Shown here in pieces: positions 1 to 19,302 of a stretch of DNA of 64,000 bases. Source of the DNA: Nitrososphaera sp. (lineage in GTDB: Archaea; Thermoproteota; Nitrososphaeria; Nitrososphaerales; Nitrososphaeraceae); assembly GCA_039938515.1 (NCBI GenBank), contig JBDUUL010000001.1:171760-235759 (forward strand), written 5' to 3'. The notes beneath the pieces are model-generated. The model was not told where the DNA came from. It searched no databases and was given only the letters and a program-made list of their open reading frames with translations. Position numbers and translations under genes: made by a program. Positions within the stretch are counted from its first letter, which is position 1. The number at the start of each line of letters is the position of its first letter.

Positions 1-26
1 TATTTTACATAATTCATCCGTGGGTC

Positions 27-35
27 TTTTTATAC
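27..35 (+). promoter_or_regulatory. TATA-like box, probable leaderless promoter
   Basis: An A/T-rich box (TTTTTATAC) is centred about 26 nt before the ATG at 58, the spacing expected if the transcript starts at the start codon. No Shine-Dalgarno sequence is seen. Inferred from position and composition. Confidence 0.45.
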
Positions 36-57
36 TTCCTTCGTTCCAGACCTAGCC

Positions 58-279
58 ATGGCCCAAGAGTCAGACAGTCGACCGCCAAAAGTATGCAAGC
101 GAGTTTCTGTTGTAGTAGCATCAGAAAAGGATGCGAAGGAAATCGGGAAATGTGTTCTTAAATCCGGTGCCGCAGACTTTTTCAGCACAGAACCGACTCT
201 CGTCATAGGCAAAGACAAGAAGGGAAAAGCGCTAATCAGTGAGGCAACACTAATGGCAATGAATCTCTGTGAGATCTAG
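58..279 (+). CDS. Small conserved-looking protein of unknown function
   Basis: This 73-residue protein starts at ATG and is not recognised. It has a Lys-rich middle, two separated cysteines (about residues 13 and 32) and a short hydrophobic C-terminus, but no clear domain and no membrane segment. A TATA-like box lies at leaderless distance, which supports expression. It is convergent with the zinc-ribbon gene at 306-848. If the integrated element inferred from the tRNA-Arg junction extends this far left, this gene belongs to it; the sequence here cannot settle that. Confidence 0.5.
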   Translation: MAQESDSRPPKVCKRVSVVVASEKDAKEIGKCVLKSGAADFFSTEPTLVIGKDKKGKALISEATLMAMNLCEI

Positions 280-305
280 CCTGCCTCCCGTTTGGAAGAG
301 TCGAT

Positions 306-848
306 TTATGGCGACATAATAGACTCCAGAGCCTCGGTCGTGAGCAGCTGCGCAATCGGAATTTCCTTAATGTTAAGAGCTCTTTCGAACGCATTTATTG
401 AGAGGGCGAACTGTAAAACTTTCGCACCATTCCGCCTTGACCTTGCATTGTGGTAGCCTTTCAAGACCTTTCGTAGGCCACTCCAGTTGGCAGCGACCGA
501 CATGCCATTGTACATTATTTCGTCCGCCCTGTGCCTCACGCCATCTTTATCAACATAACTTGAACCGGGGTTTGCCCTGTGAACGCTCCTAGCATTGGAC
601 TTTTGAATGGCAAGAAATTTGCTGTAACACATCCTGCATCGCTTTGTACTCCCTCTGCTAGCAACCTTGCCGCAATCTACGCAGTGGATGCGAGCCTTGA
701 GCGGACCAAATCTTATGTTTGTTTGAATCCGGGCGTTGCACCTTCGACAAAACATTGATCTCTTTAGAATCAGGGTTAGGCAAAATGGGCATGGGTGCTT
801 TCGCTTGTTGCCGAAGCTTGAGCCACTGAACAAATGATGCATGAGCAA
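306..848 (-). CDS. Zinc-ribbon protein with four CxxC pairs, unknown function
   Basis: A 180-residue basic protein. The first 80 residues hold four CxxC pairs (CPFC, CRRC, CVDC, CRMC), enough for two zinc sites of rubredoxin or zinc-ribbon type. The C-terminal 100 residues are basic and probably helical, without a motif I recognise. The start is ambiguous: TTG at 848, ATG at 842 and TTG at 833 are all in frame before the first cysteine, and an A/T box overlaps the most upstream choice. It is the last gene of the same-strand series downstream of the integrase, so it is probably element cargo. DNA or RNA binding is a guess from charge and zinc pairs. Confidence 0.6.
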   Translation of the reverse strand: MLMHHLFSGSSFGNKRKHPCPFCLTLILKRSMFCRRCNARIQTNIRFGPLKARIHCVDCGKVASRGSTKRCRMCYSKFLAIQKSNARSVHRANPGSSYVDKDGVRHRADEIMYNGMSVAANWSGLRKVLKGYHNARSRRNGAKVLQFALSINAFERALNIKEIPIAQLLTTEALESIMSP

Positions 849-1098
849 TATACTGAAGTGAACTTTAAAGTCTTTCTAGCCTTTTCAGGAATCACAAGCA
901 CCTAACCAGTTTACAAGACAAATCCGGAGCTGCCAAATCGTGACGTTTCCCGGTTTAGCAGCGAACGGCATACCGGTCTAGTACTATGCTAGCAGCTACC
1001 AAGTGTCTCAACGTACTCCGTGGCTGAACACGTATGAAAAGTGAAAGTACTTCAGAATCCGTATCAGCGGCTGAGGTTAGAAAAAGTTGGAGCTGTGT

Positions 1099-2274
1099 TC
1101 AAAACGTCATGAATTCTCTAATATCTGACTGCCCGCATGAGACATGCTTAGTGTTACCGCCGCCACTGACGCCATAGTAAAGGCTCTCAAGGCGAGGTTG
1201 ATCAAGTGCAGATAACATTTGACGGCAGAATTTCTGCAACTTTCTATCGGCGTCGTCCGCAGCTATTCCGATGGCGTCGGAGATTGGCAAGTTCCTCGCC
1301 CTCATAGTCTCTTCCACCTCGAGTCGGAATGTCTTGATATTGTAGGGCATTATCTTCCCGTAGACCTTGAAAGAGGCTCCTAAGTAACTGAACTTAGCAC
1401 CACCGGATGTCCAGCCCTTCGTCAATACCGGAAACCTGCTTTGAAGTTCAGACACCGGAGTCTTGTCGGCATCGAACATTACAAGTTCCCATTCACATAC
1501 GTCAGAAAGCACCGCAACTCGACATTGATGCCTAAATTCATAAGCAGCCACCCCACACGAAGCAAAGAAGTCGACACTGCCTTCGCCGGTGCCCATGTCA
1601 AACGGCTTCTTGGAGCATTCTATGTACACCATGCATGTACCATTGGGCGAGACTACAAACTGGACGTGCCGGAATTCGTCAAGCTCGAACCTGAATTTCT
1701 TTTGTCTGTCAGATTCGGGCCATTGGATGGATTCATACTCTCCACGTGCGAGAGTGGCTTTAATGTGCACGTTATGGAGCTTTGAGCCCTCAACCAAGAA
1801 GAATTGAAAAAGAGTGTGAAGAACAGCCAGCCGTTCCTCGTTGCTGGGTTGTGTGCTGGCGGCATTAGGTTGTGGTGTGGTTTCTGAAATAATGGCTTCT
1901 GATTGGCCTTTTGAAAGAAAGTATTGAGAGTGACGGCCGGTCTTTTTTCCCTGAGACACTAGCAGGCCCTTCGATTGGCCTTGGTAAAGCAGCTGTCTTG
2001 CAGAGGCACTCGACTTGCCCATCGCTACTACGTCCGTCGTGATAATTCCTCTTCCTTCAGAAATTTCCAGTTCTGCTGCTTTGACAGCGATGCTCCTCAG
2101 CCCGTGGCTCAATCTGATTCTCGGATTCAGGCGCTCCCAAGCCCGGACACGATCACTGGCAGCCTCAATTCTTGTTTTTGATGTTTCGACGGCTAGCCCG
2201 GATTCTCCTTCCTCATTGTCGTCGAGAAGAGTGAGGCTGGGCGAACCATCAGAGTTGCTCGACACGCTCTCCAC
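1099..2274 (-). CDS. 391-residue protein with N-terminal winged-helix-like region, unknown
   Basis: Starts at GTG. Residues 1-40 are acidic and low complexity. Residues about 50-120 read like a winged helix: a helical stretch, then TTDVVAMGKSSASARQLLYQ (a plausible recognition helix) and a wing-like turn with Gly-Lys-Lys. A Pro/Ser/Thr/Gln-rich linker follows (about 125-145). The last 240 residues form an alpha/beta domain with several Cys and aromatic residues that I cannot assign. The start overlaps the preceding small ORF by 26 nt, so the two are probably co-transcribed. In an integrative element such a protein could be a replication initiator or a regulator; this is inference from position and from the DNA-binding-like N-terminus. 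Confidence 0.6.
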   Translation of the reverse strand: MESVSSNSDGSPSLTLLDDNEEGESGLAVETSKTRIEAASDRVRAWERLNPRIRLSHGLRSIAVKAAELEISEGRGIITTDVVAMGKSSASARQLLYQGQSKGLLVSQGKKTGRHSQYFLSKGQSEAIISETTPQPNAASTQPSNEERLAVLHTLFQFFLVEGSKLHNVHIKATLARGEYESIQWPESDRQKKFRFELDEFRHVQFVVSPNGTCMVYIECSKKPFDMGTGEGSVDFFASCGVAAYEFRHQCRVAVLSDVCEWELVMFDADKTPVSELQSRFPVLTKGWTSGGAKFSYLGASFKVYGKIMPYNIKTFRLEVEETMRARNLPISDAIGIAADDADRKLQKFCRQMLSALDQPRLESLYYGVSGGGNTKHVSCGQSDIREFMTF

Positions 2275-2449
2275 CTGCTAGTTCATCGAACTGCACCTCA
2301 TCCAGCGGAAGCTCACCGCTCAAGAGGCGAATTATGCATGGGACGCAAAAGCCGGCATCTAGGCCGATTTTCATTAGCCAAAGGTGAGCGGTGACGGGGT
2401 TTAGGCAGCCGATCGATGCGCAATTGCTTGAAAAGTTGGGACTCGGCAA
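2249..2449 (-). CDS. Small protein between AbrB-like gene and winged-helix gene
   Basis: Reading from TTG at 2449, four bases past the stop of the AbrB-like gene, gives a 66-residue protein with three or four cysteines, a Trp-containing amphipathic segment and an acidic C-terminus. A longer in-frame reading from 2545 exists, but its extra N-terminus overlaps the AbrB-like gene and looks non-coding. The tight spacing upstream and the 26-nt overlap with the next gene suggest one transcript. Function unknown. Confidence 0.45.
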   Translation of the reverse strand: MPSPNFSSNCASIGCLNPVTAHLWLMKIGLDAGFCVPCIIRLLSGELPLDEVQFDELAGGERVEQL

Positions 2450-2453
2450 ATTG

Positions 2454-2672
2454 TTACTCGAGGTAGTGGTAGTCAAGATCAGGTTCCGCTCCTTGGATGG
2501 ACGTGTGCTTCCTAAGCAAGATCCCTTCAGGCTTCTGTTCCACATCGTAGATTGCCCCGTGATTGATGTTCAGAAAGTCAGCTGCGCTTTTTTCGATTTC
2601 AAGCAGACAATGCTTCCCGACTCTAATTGCCACTGCAGGAACTGATCTGTTTTTATGCGAGCTAGTGGACAT
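2454..2672 (-). CDS. AbrB/SpoVT-like small DNA-binding protein (putative)
   Basis: A 72-residue protein starting at ATG. The stretch AIRVGKHCLLEIEKSAADF, followed by a hydrophobic strand and a charged C-terminus, resembles a swapped-hairpin AbrB fold, in which a dimer of short beta units binds DNA. The similarity is at the level of pattern only. It lies between the RHH-like gene and the winged-helix gene on the same strand, so it could be a second regulator of the element. An antitoxin role is possible for AbrB proteins, but no toxin partner is recognised next to it. Confidence 0.45.
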   Translation of the reverse strand: MSTSSHKNRSVPAVAIRVGKHCLLEIEKSAADFLNINHGAIYDVEQKPEGILLRKHTSIQGAEPDLDYHYLE

Positions 2673-2728
2673 TAGGTCGAGCCTCCTGCTTCAGGCATAA
2701 GGTTCGGGGCGGCAAATGCTGTTTGCAA

Positions 2729-2884
2729 CTACACTTTGCCCCCTTTCTTTTCTAACTCGTCTATGACTTCATTTATGGCTGCGTCAACGCTGATGCGCAG
2801 AGCTGGCTTTTGGCGACTCAAAAGACGTGCCACGGTGGCCGGTGTAAGCTGCGCACGGACGAATCTTTCTGTACGTTCTTCCAT
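2729..2884 (-). CDS. 51-residue ribbon-helix-helix-like regulator (putative)
   Basis: ATG at 2884 opens a 51-residue frame ending at 2729. The N-terminus is charged (MEERTERFVRAQLTPATVAR), followed by a basic turn and RISVDAAINEVIDELEKK, which resembles the strand-helix-helix layout of small RHH or copy-control proteins. Support for a real gene comes from a TATA-like box at leaderless distance and a perfect 6+6 dyad just upstream of it, an arrangement typical of an autorepressed small regulator. It lies directly downstream of the integrase on the same strand. The fold is an inference from pattern, not from a search. Confidence 0.6.
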   Translation of the reverse strand: MEERTERFVRAQLTPATVARLLSRQKPALRISVDAAINEVIDELEKKGGKV

Positions 2885-2905
2885 CTGACGGCGACGCCCA
2901 GCTAC

Positions 2906-2917
2906 GAGTATTTAAGG
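2906..2917 (-). promoter_or_regulatory. TATA-like box for the RHH-like gene
   Basis: On the minus strand the sequence reads ACCTTAAATACT and is centred about 27 nt before the ATG at 2884. That spacing implies a leaderless transcript. Confidence 0.5.
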
Positions 2918-2923
2918 TCTAAC

Positions 2924-2937
2924 GTACAAAATTGTAC
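2924..2937. promoter_or_regulatory. Dyad operator candidate GTACAA-AA-TTGTAC
   Basis: A perfect 6-bp inverted repeat with a 2-nt spacer lies immediately upstream of the TATA box of the 51-residue RHH-like gene and downstream of the integrase stop. Its position over the BRE region would let a bound dimer block TFB/TBP. Operator function is inferred from symmetry and location. Confidence 0.45.
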
Positions 2938-3012
2938 AAAGTCGAAGACCTCAGAGACAGATCCACGAGGGAAAATCATGCAAATGTTTTCGGCCGTGGA
3001 ATTCTTATGAGT

Positions 3013-4359
3013 TCAAGTGCGGCTGGAACGACTCCTTGGATGTTTACGCTCAACTGTTTGTTCCCCCTTAGTCAGGAGAGACTGTTTAATTGCGTCAATG
3101 TCCAAGCCGCCGTCCTGAATTAGCCTGTATGTTTCAAACGCATCTTGCAGGGTTTCGAGCTTCTTGTTAAAGTCTGACTTCATGGTCTCGAGCTGCGTAT
3201 GATAATAATTACTCGCCTCTTCGGCCTTGACCAGTGCCTTCTGGTTCGCCCCGAGTTGCTCGGAAAGGTCTTGGACTTTCTGTTCAACAGCTGCCTGAAT
3301 GCGACTGTCTACCGCTTGCTCGATGTCGAGCCTGAGCTTGCTCTCGATCAATATGCTGAGGCTATCGGACACTTTGACGTAGTCACTTAGCAGTTCGCTC
3401 TCGGCTGGGCGATAGTATGAGTCGCTTATGCCGACACTATGGCCCATGAGGGTTTCGACATTAATCGGCTTCATTCCAGCTAACTCTGCCTTTGTCTTGA
3501 AGTATTTTCTGAACCCATGAACGCTGAATTCGTGTCTCCTCTCAGACCTCTCCCGCAATCCCAGTTGCTTCAGTAATCGATTGTAATACTTCCTGATGGA
3601 GCTCGGGCTCATTGCGATGACTCTATCCTTGGCGTCCTTTCTCTGGTATCTGGGCCGAACCGGGTCAAACTTGTCTCTAAACAAGGGACTTTCTGGCTTT
3701 AACTGCTCACCATTGCGCTCTCTAAATGCAAGATAAGCGTCCAATGACTCACACGCCTCTGCAGAAATAAAGGCAATGTATTGTTCCTCGTCGCCCCGAT
3801 ACACGACTAGTCTGCCCGCAACTGTAACGCCTTCCCTATTGATTTTGCTATAATCTCGGAGCTCAAAACCGTCGACGGCGCCTTCCCTCACCCCTGAGCT
3901 TACAAAGACCAGCGTAAGGGCCTTGCCTCGAATGTCGCTGTGGTTGACTATCTGTCTTACTTCCTCAGCGGTCGGGATTCTGTCGAGGGCATAGCGTCGG
4001 GCACGGGGCAAAATGCGTCTAATCTTCTTCCAGTTTAGAGATACGTCGTTCATGTCTAGTAGCAAGCGTATTGACTTGAGGGAACCACCTATGGTGGCGC
4101 CCGTGATTTCTTTGCTGTCAACCCTCTGTTTCATCGCAATGACATAGTTCATGATGGCCTTCTCTGCAAAACCTGAGTCGTTCTTGGCAGCCTCCACGAA
4201 CTGGTCTGGATTCATTTTCACAGTAGTCAGAAAAGCAACAAGTCGCCGCTCGTACGGGTCAAGTGTCCACTTTGATCTTACGGCTTGACGAAAATTCTCA
4301 TAAGCGGGGCCATAAAGAATACTGCGGTCTACCGCATTCTTTCTAGACTTTGCTTCCAC
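3013..4359 (-). CDS. Tyrosine recombinase (integrase)
   Basis: A 448-residue site-specific recombinase of the phage-integrase family. The catalytic set is visible: Arg158 in SSGVREGAV, His281-x-x-Arg284 in VHGFRKYF, His307 in MGHSVG, and the nucleophile Tyr315 or Tyr316 in SDSYYRP. Residues 20-125 form the core-binding, SAM-like domain. Residues about 340-410 are a predicted coiled coil, and the tail is basic. The gene starts 63 nt from the 3' end of tRNA-Arg on the same strand, with a TATATA box about 26 nt before the start. Integrases of this type typically recombine at tRNA 3' ends, so this is very probably the integration module of an element extending to the left. The gene is intact, not split as in SSV1-type proviruses. 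Confidence 0.92.
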   Translation of the reverse strand: MEAKSRKNAVDRSILYGPAYENFRQAVRSKWTLDPYERRLVAFLTTVKMNPDQFVEAAKNDSGFAEKAIMNYVIAMKQRVDSKEITGATIGGSLKSIRLLLDMNDVSLNWKKIRRILPRARRYALDRIPTAEEVRQIVNHSDIRGKALTLVFVSSGVREGAVDGFELRDYSKINREGVTVAGRLVVYRGDEEQYIAFISAEACESLDAYLAFRERNGEQLKPESPLFRDKFDPVRPRYQRKDAKDRVIAMSPSSIRKYYNRLLKQLGLRERSERRHEFSVHGFRKYFKTKAELAGMKPINVETLMGHSVGISDSYYRPAESELLSDYVKVSDSLSILIESKLRLDIEQAVDSRIQAAVEQKVQDLSEQLGANQKALVKAEEASNYYHTQLETMKSDFNKKLETLQDAFETYRLIQDGGLDIDAIKQSLLTKGEQTVERKHPRSRSSRT

Positions 4360-4381
4360 GGCAATCCATAGAAAGTTCCAG

Positions 4382-4412
4382 TATATAGCTTTTGAGTCCT
4401 CAAAAAGAGGAC
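4382..4412 (-). promoter_or_regulatory. Integrase promoter with dyad GTCCTC-N5-GAGGAC
   Basis: On the minus strand a TATATA-type box (4382-4389) lies about 26 nt before the integrase start at 4359. Directly upstream is a perfect 6-bp inverted repeat with a 5-nt spacer (4396-4412). The dyad falls between the tRNA 3' end and the TATA box, so it may be an operator. Its T-rich spacer could also end the tRNA transcript. Confidence 0.45.
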
Positions 4413-4422
4413 AAAATCGTAG

Positions 4423-4497
4423 CGGGCCCAGAGGGACTCGAACCCTCGACCAACTGCTTCGCAGGCAGCCATTCTATCCAAGCTGAACTATGGGCCC
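4423..4497 (-). tRNA. tRNA-Arg (anticodon GCG)
   Basis: On the minus strand a full cloverleaf is readable: acceptor GGGCCCA/TGGGCCC, D stem GTTC/GAAT, anticodon stem GCTGC/GCAGT with loop CTGCGAA (anticodon GCG, reads CGC), variable loop TGGTC, T stem GAGGG/CCCTC with loop TTCGAGT, and discriminator G. No intron and no encoded CCA. The integrase lies directly downstream, so the 3' half is a probable attachment site. No second copy of the 3' half was found in this window. Confidence 0.93.
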
Positions 4498-9052: not shown

Positions 9053-9259
9053 CTATTTCCCATTTTCTTCATCGCTATGCGGCGGCGCGTCACTGTCGTG
9101 CTCGTTAGCGTCTTCTCGTCTTCTCCTCAGGCGGAGGTAAATCGCCGCCCCTATAAAGGCCAGCAAGAGTATCAGCAGCAGGAAGAACGTCGACTCGTCT
9201 TTGACGGTCCCCTTCGGCAAAATGGCATCCACTCCAAAACTTGGAATGCCTCGTATCAT
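9053..9259 (-). CDS. Small single-span membrane protein, unknown
   Basis: A 68-residue protein with one hydrophobic segment (about residues 25-42, FFLLLILLLAFIGAAIYL), an Arg cluster immediately after it (RLRRRRED) and an acidic, His-containing tail. The positive-inside rule puts the C-terminus in the cytoplasm. It is convergent with TFB. No family recognised; the clean membrane topology is the main support. Confidence 0.5.
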   Translation of the reverse strand: MIRGIPSFGVDAILPKGTVKDESTFFLLLILLLAFIGAAIYLRLRRRREDANEHDSDAPPHSDEENGK

Positions 9260-9427
9260 TGACCTTGGACGCTTAGTGAACTCCCAAATATTAGGTGTCG
9301 CTATTCAACCGCGTCGCGACCCTCAAGGGGCATGCAGATTCGCCCGCTCGCAGGCATTAAAAGTTCTCAACAATTGCATTGCACTGCATTCCTGTCTGAT
9401 TTATAGGATTAGAGTCAAGACAAAAAA

Positions 9428-9688
9428 GTGCCGAGACCAATAGATAATGGCGACGAGAACAATTCGGGCTATAGGTCAAGGGATGAAATTGTCAAGGCCA
9501 TCTTGATGGCCGCTCTAAACGGCTATGAAACCAGAATGACGATTATGCATTCAGCGTTTGTGACGCATGAAGTTGCAACAAAAGCGCTTGAGGAGCTGGT
9601 TTCCAGAGGGCTGCTTTTCGTTGTACCAAGCGGTGGAAGTCGATACAAGATTACAGAGCTTGGGCGCAAAATGCTAGAATCGTCTTAG
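9428..9688 (+). CDS. Small winged-helix DNA-binding protein
   Basis: An 86-residue protein starting at GTG. Residues about 17-80 give the pattern of the small archaeal winged helix: SRDEIVKAILMAALNGYETR (helix 1), a second helix, a recognition-helix region (VTHEVATKALEELVSRGLLF), then the wing (VVPSGGSRYKITELGRKML). Such proteins are abundant in Thaumarchaeota and are presumed transcription regulators. The ligand and targets are unknown. It stands alone between the small membrane gene and apgM. Confidence 0.75.
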   Translation: MPRPIDNGDENNSGYRSRDEIVKAILMAALNGYETRMTIMHSAFVTHEVATKALEELVSRGLLFVVPSGGSRYKITELGRKMLESS

Positions 9689-16319: not shown

Positions 16320-17660
16320 TTACACCGAATACATGGTTGATATCCTTGTTACCTTATCGACAACCTCGGCAGGGTTACTGCCAAAGACCATAGTCATGGC
16401 TTCCTTCCCAACGTCCCCCGTATGGTAAATGACGTCTGCTGCCGGAGTATCCGACAGCGCCGACCTAATCCCCCACGGGACGCTCGAGCCTTCCGCAGAC
16501 TTGACCTCTCTCGGCTCAAGCTGTCTATCGTAACTGGCAACCCTGCAAGATGCCATGCACGCGTTTAAGACCTTGGAGTCAAACTTCATGTTTATAGCAG
16601 ATCTCATCGTCGGATCGAACTTCATGTACTCGACTATCGCCGCTGCGACGTGCCTTGACTCTGCGAAATCAACGTCGGATACTGCAATGACCTCGGATCC
16701 TGCTCTGACTATCCTGCCCCTGACAGCCGCTACTTCTTGAACTTTGCTGGCCCCGGGCAACGCATATGCAAAGTTTGTCTGCGTTTCTGGAACCAGGCTC
16801 CCAAAACCCCTGATTTTTACCAGATTTCTGACTGCCGCGCGCAAGTCCCGTATCACATTGTATTTTTGAGCGTCGAGGTAAAGCGCAGCGAGGGGGTTTG
16901 TTACCGGCAGGCCGCTGCCTACGCGGGTCAAGTTCAGAAGCGCATCGTGAACGTACGAGTTCGCCGCCTTGCACGCCTTTTCGAGTGGCATTCCGCCTGC
17001 AATGAAGGCTGTAAGCGCGGCGGAAAAATTGCAGCCTGAACCGTGCGTTTCTCCTACTTCAATCCGCGGGTTTGAGAACAAGACTCGCCTGTTTTCCGAG
17101 GTTAAGAGCAGGTCAACTGCGTGGTCCTGTTCAAAATGACCACCTTTTACAATAACATTCCTTGCGCCCAGTGCCATTATTCGTTCTGCCGCCTTGACCG
17201 TGTCATCCTCACCGGAAATCCTGACACCTGACAAGTATTCTGCCTCGGCTCGGTTCGGAGTGATAGCAAACGACATTGGAATAATCGATTTTATGAAATC
17301 GCCCACCGCATCGGGACGAAGAAGTGGCGCTCCTGTTCCTGCTGACAGTATGGGGTCAACGACGAGTGGAAACCCGGCTCCAGCCAGCCCGTCAACTACC
17401 GCAGCGATTATTTCCTTGCTGTAAAGCATGCCTAATTTTGCCGCAGCCGGCGGCATATCCGTCAAGATCGAGACTAGCTGGCTCTTGACTACCTCGCCGG
17501 GAATTTCAAATATGCGCGATACCGAGACTGTGTTTTGGGAAGTTAGGGCGGTTATGACGGTGCAGCCGTGAAGTCCGAGGGCGGCGAATGTCTTCAGGTC
17601 GGCTTGAATTCCGGCTCCGGCGCCGGAGTCGCTGCCCGCTATCGATAGCGCAGTCTTCAT
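16320..17660 (-). CDS. thiDN: Bifunctional HMP(-P) kinase/thiamine-phosphate synthase (ThiD-ThiN)
   Basis: A 446-residue fusion. Residues 1-265 are ThiD, a ribokinase-like kinase: KTALSIAGSDSGAGAGIQAD at the N-terminus binds HMP, and GETHGSGCNFSAALTAFIA holds the catalytic and anion-hole region. Residues about 275-446 are ThiN, the archaeal thiamine-phosphate synthase (ending DVIYHTGDVGKEAMTMVFG). The fusion order is the usual archaeal one. A CytX-like transporter is divergent at 17989. A small Cys-rich gene lies 39 nt upstream on the same strand. No TPP riboswitch signature was seen in the intergenic region. Confidence 0.92.
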   Translation of the reverse strand: MKTALSIAGSDSGAGAGIQADLKTFAALGLHGCTVITALTSQNTVSVSRIFEIPGEVVKSQLVSILTDMPPAAAKLGMLYSKEIIAAVVDGLAGAGFPLVVDPILSAGTGAPLLRPDAVGDFIKSIIPMSFAITPNRAEAEYLSGVRISGEDDTVKAAERIMALGARNVIVKGGHFEQDHAVDLLLTSENRRVLFSNPRIEVGETHGSGCNFSAALTAFIAGGMPLEKACKAANSYVHDALLNLTRVGSGLPVTNPLAALYLDAQKYNVIRDLRAAVRNLVKIRGFGSLVPETQTNFAYALPGASKVQEVAAVRGRIVRAGSEVIAVSDVDFAESRHVAAAIVEYMKFDPTMRSAINMKFDSKVLNACMASCRVASYDRQLEPREVKSAEGSSVPWGIRSALSDTPAADVIYHTGDVGKEAMTMVFGSNPAEVVDKVTRISTMYSV

Positions 17661-17699
17661 GAGAAAAAGTGTTCACTGGATTGCATATTATCCCTTCTG

Positions 17700-17849
17700 C
17701 TAGAGCGCGCAATCGCAGAGACAGACATACTTGCCGCAGCAAAAGCATTCTATCGACTCGGCGTTGATCCTGGAACGCCGGTTGTGGGTTTCGCACATTA
17801 CCGTCCTACCTTCAAATGAGCCGTCCAGAATTTCCTGCTGATATGCCAT
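17700..17849 (-). CDS. 49-residue Cys-rich microprotein, possible zinc-binding
   Basis: ATG at 17849 opens a 49-codon frame ending at 17700. The C-terminus is dense in cysteine (ECFCCGKYVCLCDCAL, six Cys in 16 residues), with one more Cys and a His at about residues 19-22 (CETH). Such spacing suggests one or two metal sites. It lies 39 nt upstream of thiDN on the same strand and may share its transcript. Nothing further is known from sequence. Confidence 0.45.
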   Translation of the reverse strand: MAYQQEILDGSFEGRTVMCETHNRRSRINAESIECFCCGKYVCLCDCAL

Positions 17850-17988
17850 AACCCGAAAGTTCCAAACCAATCGTTAATCATGGTGGCAAGCTAATTTAGA
17901 CAATGAAGGCAAATCCAGCTAGTCTGGAGGGATTAACCTGAATTGATTTTGATGCCTCCTGGAATTCCCTATACAACGAATATTAACG

Positions 17989-19302
17989 GTGAGGCTGACC
18001 GGCGATCCAGTGACTCTGATTAATCCTCCCGAATGGGGGATAGAGCCGGTTCCTAATGAACAGAAAAAGCTCAGAGGGCGGGATTACTTTATCCTCTGGT
18101 CGAGTCTTGGCGTGGGCCTGCTGGTTCTTTCGGCGGGGTCGTTTCTGGCTGATGCATCCATCACCGATGCGATTCTTGCTATCGTCGTGGGTTCTCTCGT
18201 TGGCTCGGCACTGTTGGCCTTGGCCGGCAAAATTGGGAGCGACGGAGGAATTCCTTCGCTTATTAGCATGAGACCATCGCTTGGCCTTCGCGGCACATAC
18301 GTGCCTGCAATCCTGAATGTAATCCAGCTGGTCGGCTGGACTACTTTTGAGATCATGATAATGTCAAGGGCGGCGGACATCCTTACCGGCAAGTCCCTGC
18401 CATACTTTGCGTGGACAGCTATCTTTGGCATCATCACTGCGTTTCTGGGTATTATCGGCCCCCTTGCGGTGGCGCGCCAGTGGCTTGGCAAATTCGCGGT
18501 GTGGATCGCCTATGGGAGTTCTGCAGTCATTATCGCGAGCCTTGTCATGTCGGGGGCACCTGAACGCTTACTTGCTCACACCTCTCACAGCCTCTCGTTT
18601 TTTTCCGCTCTCGACCTCGTAATAGCGATGCCAGTGTCCTGGATGCCCTTGGCGGCAGATTACAACCGTTTTTCAAAGAGGAGCAAGGGTGCGTTTATGG
18701 GGACTATGGTCGGATTCGCAGTCACCAACATCCTGTTCTACTTTGGGGGCCTTCTCATCGGAAGCTCCGATGTGGTCGCAATAATAGTCTCAATTCAAGC
18801 AATCTTTTCCGGCTTTCTGATGCTTTTGCTGTTGGTTGACGAGGCGGACAACGCTTTTGCCGATGTCTACTCGGCAGCTTTGTCTACGCAGAATATTTTC
18901 CCAAAGGTCCTCCAAAAATATCTGGTAATCGGTTTTACCGCGTTGAGCGCAGCGTTGGCGACAATAATCACAATTGAGAATTACGAGACATTTCTTTTGC
19001 TCATAAGCGCCGTATTTGTTCCGCTCTTCGGTGTAGTCCTGAGCGACTACTACATACTAAAAAGAAAGTATACTCCTGACGCGATATACACGCAGAAGGG
19101 TGCTCCTACAAACCCGCGAGCGCTGATTGCTTGGTCGACCGGCGCGCTCCTGAGCCTCGTCTTATCTCCGCTGTCACCAATTTATGTCCCACAGCTCCCG
19201 CCGATAGGTGCTACTATTCCGAGCTTGGTGTCGGCATCGCTCATCTATGTGGTACTGATGAAAGCCTCGTTTAGAGGGCAATCAAGAATTGCCGCGCGCT
19301 GA
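17989..19302 (+). CDS. cytX: NCS1-family permease, probable hydroxymethylpyrimidine transporter (CytX-like)
   Basis: A 437-residue protein starting at GTG with about 12 hydrophobic segments. The N-terminus (PPEWGIEPVP, then a DYFILWSSLGVGLLVLSAG segment) and the mid-region (MPVSWMPLAADYNRFSKR) match the NCS1 cytosine/purine/thiamine-precursor permeases. Divergence from thiDN, which phosphorylates HMP, favours import of the thiamin pyrimidine precursor. The substrate is inferred from context; NCS1 members also carry cytosine, uracil or allantoin. Confidence 0.85.
   Translation: MRLTGDPVTLINPPEWGIEPVPNEQKKLRGRDYFILWSSLGVGLLVLSAGSFLADASITDAILAIVVGSLVGSALLALAGKIGSDGGIPSLISMRPSLGLRGTYVPAILNVIQLVGWTTFEIMIMSRAADILTGKSLPYFAWTAIFGIITAFLGIIGPLAVARQWLGKFAVWIAYGSSAVIIASLVMSGAPERLLAHTSHSLSFFSALDLVIAMPVSWMPLAADYNRFSKRSKGAFMGTMVGFAVTNILFYFGGLLIGSSDVVAIIVSIQAIFSGFLMLLLLVDEADNAFADVYSAALSTQNIFPKVLQKYLVIGFTALSAALATIITIENYETFLLLISAVFVPLFGVVLSDYYILKRKYTPDAIYTQKGAPTNPRALIAWSTGALLSLVLSPLSPIYVPQLPPIGATIPSLVSASLIYVVLMKASFRGQSRIAAR

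Follow-up and report, generated by a model that had tools for sequence, protein, structure and literature searches.

A very probable 27.8-kb cryptic integrated element in the 3' end of a tRNA-Arg(GCG) gene of a Nitrososphaera-family archaeon

A gene for a tyrosine recombinase lies next to a tRNA-Arg(GCG) gene near the left edge of a 64,000-nucleotide stretch of archaeal DNA (the window; bases 171760-235759 of the 436,782-base contig 1, in a genome of 2.56 Mb), and this raises the question of whether the tRNA gene marks one end of an integrated element and, if so, where the other end lies. We take the host to be an ammonia-oxidising archaeon of the genus Nitrososphaera (soil-type). The 171.8 kb of contig 1 to the left of the window were examined for further copies of the tRNA-Arg 3' end, and the locus was compared with that of relatives cited by G-number (the window's genome being G000). 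Among the closest relatives are three single-contig genomes (2,833,868, 2,527,938 and 2,954,373 bases), and the genus-level comparison included G013, G010, G014 and G015.

The integrase, the att repeats and the limits of the element

The integrase gene is on the tRNA's own strand and has its start codon 63 nt away from the tRNA-Arg(GCG) 3' end; the open reading frame is whole and lies entirely within the element delimited below. The product exceeds the gathering score of Phage_integrase (PF00589), matches the PHROG 'integrase' family at 5.7e-11, and has the complete catalytic set (R158, H281, R284, H307 and Y315) when checked in an alignment with nine relatives, all of which confirms an initial annotation of an intact tyrosine recombinase at this distance and on this strand. 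Like the SSV-type (suicidal) integrases (PMC8371274), it is an archaeal tyrosine recombinase using a tRNA gene, but integration has not split its gene, and because the gene is whole after integration the enzyme is of the classical rather than the SSV type.

The same contig carries the tRNA 3' end a second time (attL, Table 1). This copy is identical to the tRNA over 15/15 positions at offset 0, its first base being the tRNA 3' terminal base, and in a whole-genome search with an 18-mer and up to 2 mismatches it is the sole other copy of the tRNA-Arg(GCG) 3' end. Its orientation is the one that integration predicts, reading host, core, element, and core with the remainder of the tRNA. At 15 bp the repeat is short; a repeat of this length within 100 kb was seen in 0 of 200 Markov sequences and for 12 of 1500 random 45-mers from the contig, counts in which the exact offset has yet to be included. 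The initial annotation had taken the tRNA-Arg 3' end as one att site, with the rest of the element to the left, and had proposed looking there for a second copy; the search returned this unique direct repeat 27.8 kb away, and we found neither a gene order kept in all relatives nor a lack of tRNA duplicates within 100 kb. Since the repeat is unique, correctly oriented and at the tRNA 3' end, we place the element at contig 1 148395-176195, with direct-repeat att sequences at both ends, one of them inside the tRNA 3' end. It is very probable that these 27.8 kb are a cryptic element integrated into the tRNA-Arg(GCG) 3' end, given the uniqueness, position and orientation of the repeat, the intact catalytic residues, a matching architecture at other tRNAs with related integrases, and a locus whose left side varies among relatives. 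The repeat would thereby set exact ends for a mobile element of this size in an ammonia-oxidising archaeon.

A plausible course of events is that a circular form of the element, bearing a copy of the terminal 15 bp of the tRNA, was joined to the chromosomal tRNA by the tyrosine recombinase, which would have restored the tRNA gene at the integrase end and left the 15-bp duplicate at the far end. Excision by the reverse reaction would be possible in principle, although the element may be immobile now, as it has no recognisable replication or transfer gene.

The segment separating the tRNA 3' end from the integrase start (window 4380-4421) contains a short hairpin, GTCCTC-AAAAA-GAGGAC, and upstream of the integrase the minus strand has a TATA-like CTATATAC; these are possible terminator, promoter or arm-type sites.

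Table 1. Features of the probable element, of related integrase loci and of segments bounded by copies of the tRNA-Arg 3' end
Feature	Location	Strand	Remarks
tRNA-Arg(GCG)	window 4422-4497	-	ARAGORN; 3' end is the putative integration target and stays intact
attR core, GCGGGCCCAGAGGGA	window 4422-4436		direct repeat shared with attL
attL, second GCGGGCCCAGAGGGA copy	contig 1 148395-148409, outside window	same strand	27,786 bp left of attR
Probable element, right 4.4 kb	window 1-4436		remainder extends left to contig 1 148395; 27.8 kb in total
Tyrosine recombinase (integrase), 448 aa	window 3013-4359	-	PF00589; PHROG integrase; alignment with nine relatives
Small ORF, 51 aa	window 2729-2884	-	initially RHH-like
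Small ORF, 72 aa	window 2454-2672	-	initially AbrB-like
Small ORF, 98 aa	window 2249-2545	-	overlaps neighbours
391-aa protein	window 1099-2274	-	winged-helix N-terminus, beta-rich C-terminal domain; only member of the small-gene series with family-level support
180-aa zinc-ribbon-like protein	window 306-848	-	weak DZR match, E 2.4e-4, under gathering score
73-aa ORF	window 58-279	+	open frame only
Cargo 1 (leftmost), 1450 aa			HELGHNLGLNH metzincin motif; Reprolysin_3 just under cut-off
Cargo 2, 382 aa			NHL/propeller protein
Cargo 3	contig 1 154598-154924 (L010 14598-14924)		DDE transposase fragment (PF01609)
Cargo 4, 1234 aa			repeat protein
Cargo 5, 502 aa			CAP protein
Cargo 6			Mrr-type endonuclease
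Cargo 7, 271 aa			no family given
Cargo 8, 459 aa			second CAP protein
Cargo 9			UDG-superfamily protein
Cargo 10-11 (rightmost), 663 and 1478 aa			two cupredoxin + Ig-like proteins
G020 tRNA-end repeat, 20 bp	at 14.6 kb		closest integrase, 48% identical
G028 tRNA-end repeat, 23 bp	at 16.5 kb
G039 tRNA-end repeat, 16 bp	at 9.1 kb
G029 tRNA-end repeat, 15 bp	at 13.9 kb		also tRNA-Arg(GCG)
G036 repeat, 17 bp	at 11.1 kb		integrase-like ORF of another kind, beside the winged-helix protein
G013 segment, 0.58 kb	L076 (G013 C28) 17641-18224		hicA + hicB only (HicA_toxin 7.9e-19; HicB-like 1.7e-5, just under cut-off); bounded by tRNA-Arg 3' end and 18-bp copy
G007 segment, 0.58 kb	L080 (G007 C83) 9100-9680		as for G013
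G010 segment, 2.85 kb			cupredoxin
G014 segment, 3.7 kb			methyltransferase + PNPOx protein
G015 segment, 2.6 kb			no integrase

Gene content and composition

The ORFs behind the integrase are much as first described, except that the leftmost of what had been given as a same-strand series, the 73-aa frame, lies on the opposite strand. Pfam offers no support for calling the 51-aa and 72-aa products RHH-like and AbrB-like, and the zinc-ribbon label of the 180-aa protein corresponds to a double-zinc-ribbon match that is weak. No housekeeping gene occurs as far as position 1, as had been stated, and likewise none in the 23 kb beyond. The winged-helix label of the 391-aa protein is borne out at its N-terminus, the profile of the protein matching the MarR-type structure 4mnu at 9e-4. 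Homologues are present in 16 of the 70 genomes of the family, and those in G029, G019, contig 20 of the window's genome, G036 and G067 are no more than a few kb from integrases, with the adjoining integrase-like ORFs of G036 and G067 belonging to other families. The contig 20 instance (G000 contig 20 40178-42623; L112 10179-12624) is a second integrase and winged-helix pair of the same families, whose neighbour is an enolase gene rather than a tRNA. In a predicted model of the 391-aa protein (pLDDT 70) the C-terminal domain is beta-rich, and we did not adopt a fold assignment for it, as the near-full-length Foldseek alignments had low TM scores only (0.21-0.24 for the best E-value match). The protein is a candidate regulator or replication initiator. 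A survey of thaumarchaeal elements (Krupovic et al. 2019, PMC6563490) reports an integrase and a wHTH protein in its smallest element and suggests replication initiation as one possibility.

The element carries about 23 kb of AT-richer cargo encoding mostly secreted proteins, which probably modifies the host cell surface or secretome. CAP homologues are common in the genus and occur elsewhere on the chromosome of the window's genome and its relatives, and the large metalloprotease (1450 aa) has a patchy distribution. The Mrr-like protein was not taken for a defence system, PADLOC giving just a weak nuclease-domain match. Pfam scans of the element proteins and PHROG searches of a subset, in which some short ORFs were matchless, gave no match to a capsid, terminase, conjugation ATPase or Cas1, and the Pfam scans revealed none of the conjugation machinery by which an integrative-conjugative element is recognised. 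Viral contigs gave no match to the integrase searched singly, and four distant integrases when searched with the integrase alignment.

GC content is 46.5% for the element, the outer flanks having 50.9% and 50.6% and the interval from tRNA-Pro to attL 48.5%; within the element, the cargo is at 46.0% versus 49.0% for the integrase module (window 1-4436). Tetranucleotide deviation about doubles, from ~130-180 outside to 240-315 between the 148-152 kb bin and ~172 kb, and a 5-mer log-odds model gives a best segment of 149053-171674, whose left limit is within ~0.7 kb of attL. A k-mer or GC shift had been anticipated at 4.4 kb of the window; the shift exists, but runs from ~149.0 to 171.7 kb, because the 4.4 kb next to the tRNA resemble the host in composition. 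The secreted cargo proteins have a biased amino-acid make-up, which affects k-mers and could account for part of the shift, and we therefore treat composition as supporting evidence only.

With these properties the element fits the thaumarchaeal cryptic integrated elements, a kind already known, with a tRNA site that is reused within the genus. As described in the part of the survey considered here (PMC6563490), those elements share with it a tyrosine integrase, a target that is mostly a tRNA 3' end, short direct repeats (median 17 bp, here 15 bp), a lack of virus, conjugation or casposon genes, and listed cargo that includes winged-helix, S-layer/Ig-like, plastocyanin and nuclease proteins. 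It differs in its length, 27.8 kb against a survey median of 17 kb, and in the dominance of large secreted proteins among its cargo, and neither this host genome nor this element is named in that part of the survey. The Islander tRNA-targeted genomic islands (PMC4383910) similarly have an integrase inside, a regenerated tRNA at one end and a displaced tRNA fragment at the other, although here the element is archaeal and the displaced fragment only 15 bp.

The tRNA locus in relatives and alternative explanations

In other genomes, relatives of the integrase share the strand of a tRNA and begin 44-60 nt after its 3' end, the tRNAs being tRNA-Ile, Lys, Arg(GCG), Arg(TCT), Met and Ala. In four of them (G020, G028, G039 and G029) direct copies of the tRNA 3' end start no more than 2 nt from the tRNA end, and for the integrases of G036 (tRNA-Lys), G049 (tRNA-Arg(TCT)), G030 and G041 no convincing repeat was found within the stretch covered. 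From this a search rule for the whole family can be proposed: the integrase is expected ~45-65 nt beyond the tRNA 3' end and, at a distance of 9-28 kb, a copy of 15-23 bp of the same end.

Across the genus, the right flank of tRNA-Arg (a ScpA-like gene and its neighbour) is conserved, and the 3' part of the tRNA gene is identical in sequence in most members. The DNA to the left differs in every genus genome compared, with two low-quality relatives sharing a small segment, in keeping with the initial expectation that gene order would vary among relatives. The four genomes compared in looking for an empty site (G013, G010, G014 and G015) all differ left of the tRNA, and no clean empty site is available because the DNA left of attL is likewise not conserved and has no positional counterpart in them. 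The interval from tRNA-Pro to tRNA-Arg measures 7.9 kb in G013, 22.6 kb in G015, 27 kb in G010, 30.5 kb in G014 and 35.4 kb in the window's genome. These five intervals contain nine matches to the 16-bp tRNA-Arg end (at least 13/16) on the expected strand and one on the opposite strand, compared with a mean of 0.6 and a maximum of 3 for shuffled cores. G014 and G015 are collinear from tRNA-Pro to ~13.7 kb, and an att-like copy lies in G014 ~20 bp past that point. The strand-biased copies and the variable left side together indicate repeated use of the site, in support of the integrated-element reading. In G003 a distant integrase in the opposite orientation adjoins tRNA-Arg(GCG) (L078, G003 C2, 2186-3403), and thus unrelated elements use the site.

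Could less than the full 27.8 kb be an element? One might suppose that only the 4.4-kb integrase module (window 1-4436) is an element remnant, the leftward cargo being a host genomic island and the 15-bp repeat coincidental, as the module is host-like in composition relative to the cargo and the CAP proteins have homologues elsewhere on the chromosome. This is highly unlikely, however, as there is no nearer tRNA 3' copy around 171.7 kb, whereas the copy at 148.4 kb is unique genome-wide, begins exactly at the tRNA end and has a composition boundary within ~0.7 kb of it, and sister elements obey the same tRNA-end repeat rule. It is barely credible that the locus is an ordinary, vertically inherited variable region with an integrase beside the tRNA by accident: the tRNA-Pro to tRNA-Arg interval does vary throughout the genus, but related integrases in other genera keep the same spacing from different tRNA 3' ends, and the enrichment of tRNA 3' copies is confined to one strand (nine versus one).

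A composite origin is a variant of the integrated-element reading with the same outer ends, in which elements accreted at tRNA-Arg over time, the cargo being older and the integrase module newer, with loss of the inner att copies. We consider it unlikely, as no intermediate att-like copy (at least 13/16) was found between 148.4 and 176.2 kb, although relatives do have tRNA 3' copies in ladder fashion (three in G014, two each in G010 and G013), module and cargo differ in composition, and a transposase remnant lies within the cargo.

Integrase-free segments at the tRNA-Arg 3' end

In G013, G007, G010, G014 and G015 the copies nearest tRNA-Arg bound short segments without an integrase (Table 1). 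These may be elements in decay or, alternatively, cassettes mobilised in trans. In Nitrososphaera, foreign genes, small integrase-free segments among them, have come in repeatedly at one tRNA gene, and such segments would escape an integrase-based survey. A tentative and rather doubtful extension is that small integrase-free cassettes of one to a few genes, such as the 0.58-kb hicA-hicB segment, accrete at the tRNA-Arg(GCG) 3' end and are mobilised in trans by integrases that larger elements, like the one in the window, encode, to give a tRNA-based, integron-like archaeal cassette array. The hicA homologues in G020, G014 and G005 have no flanking tRNA-Arg 3' copies, and movement of the hicAB cassette is thus unsupported by them. 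Beyond the far copy of the hicAB segment lies an inverted repeat, GACTCGgACCC..GGGTTCGgGTC.

Several further arrangements of tRNA-Arg 3' copies were observed. In G014 (C1 572552-590000; L074, L181) three copies form a ladder at 3.7, 12.4 and 16.9 kb from the tRNA, and it is the outermost that lies just past the end of collinearity with G015. Copies remote from any tRNA are present at G015 C1 2156099 and 2166852 (L180) and at G014 C1 901862 (L177). At G015 2156099, the sequence on the element side gives an 84% match over 70 bp to the end of the G014 cassette, and nearby there is an 86% match to a further 223-bp stretch from the same tRNA-Arg region in G014; these similarities suggest movement of related DNA. 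A small contig of G004 has two perfect 18-bp copies 2 kb apart (L178, G004 C96, 1940-1957 and 3996-4013), each followed by ~45 similar bases and together bounding a segment with alcohol-dehydrogenase-like and carbonic-anhydrase-like ORFs, an arrangement that, from its sequence, looks like a tandem array.
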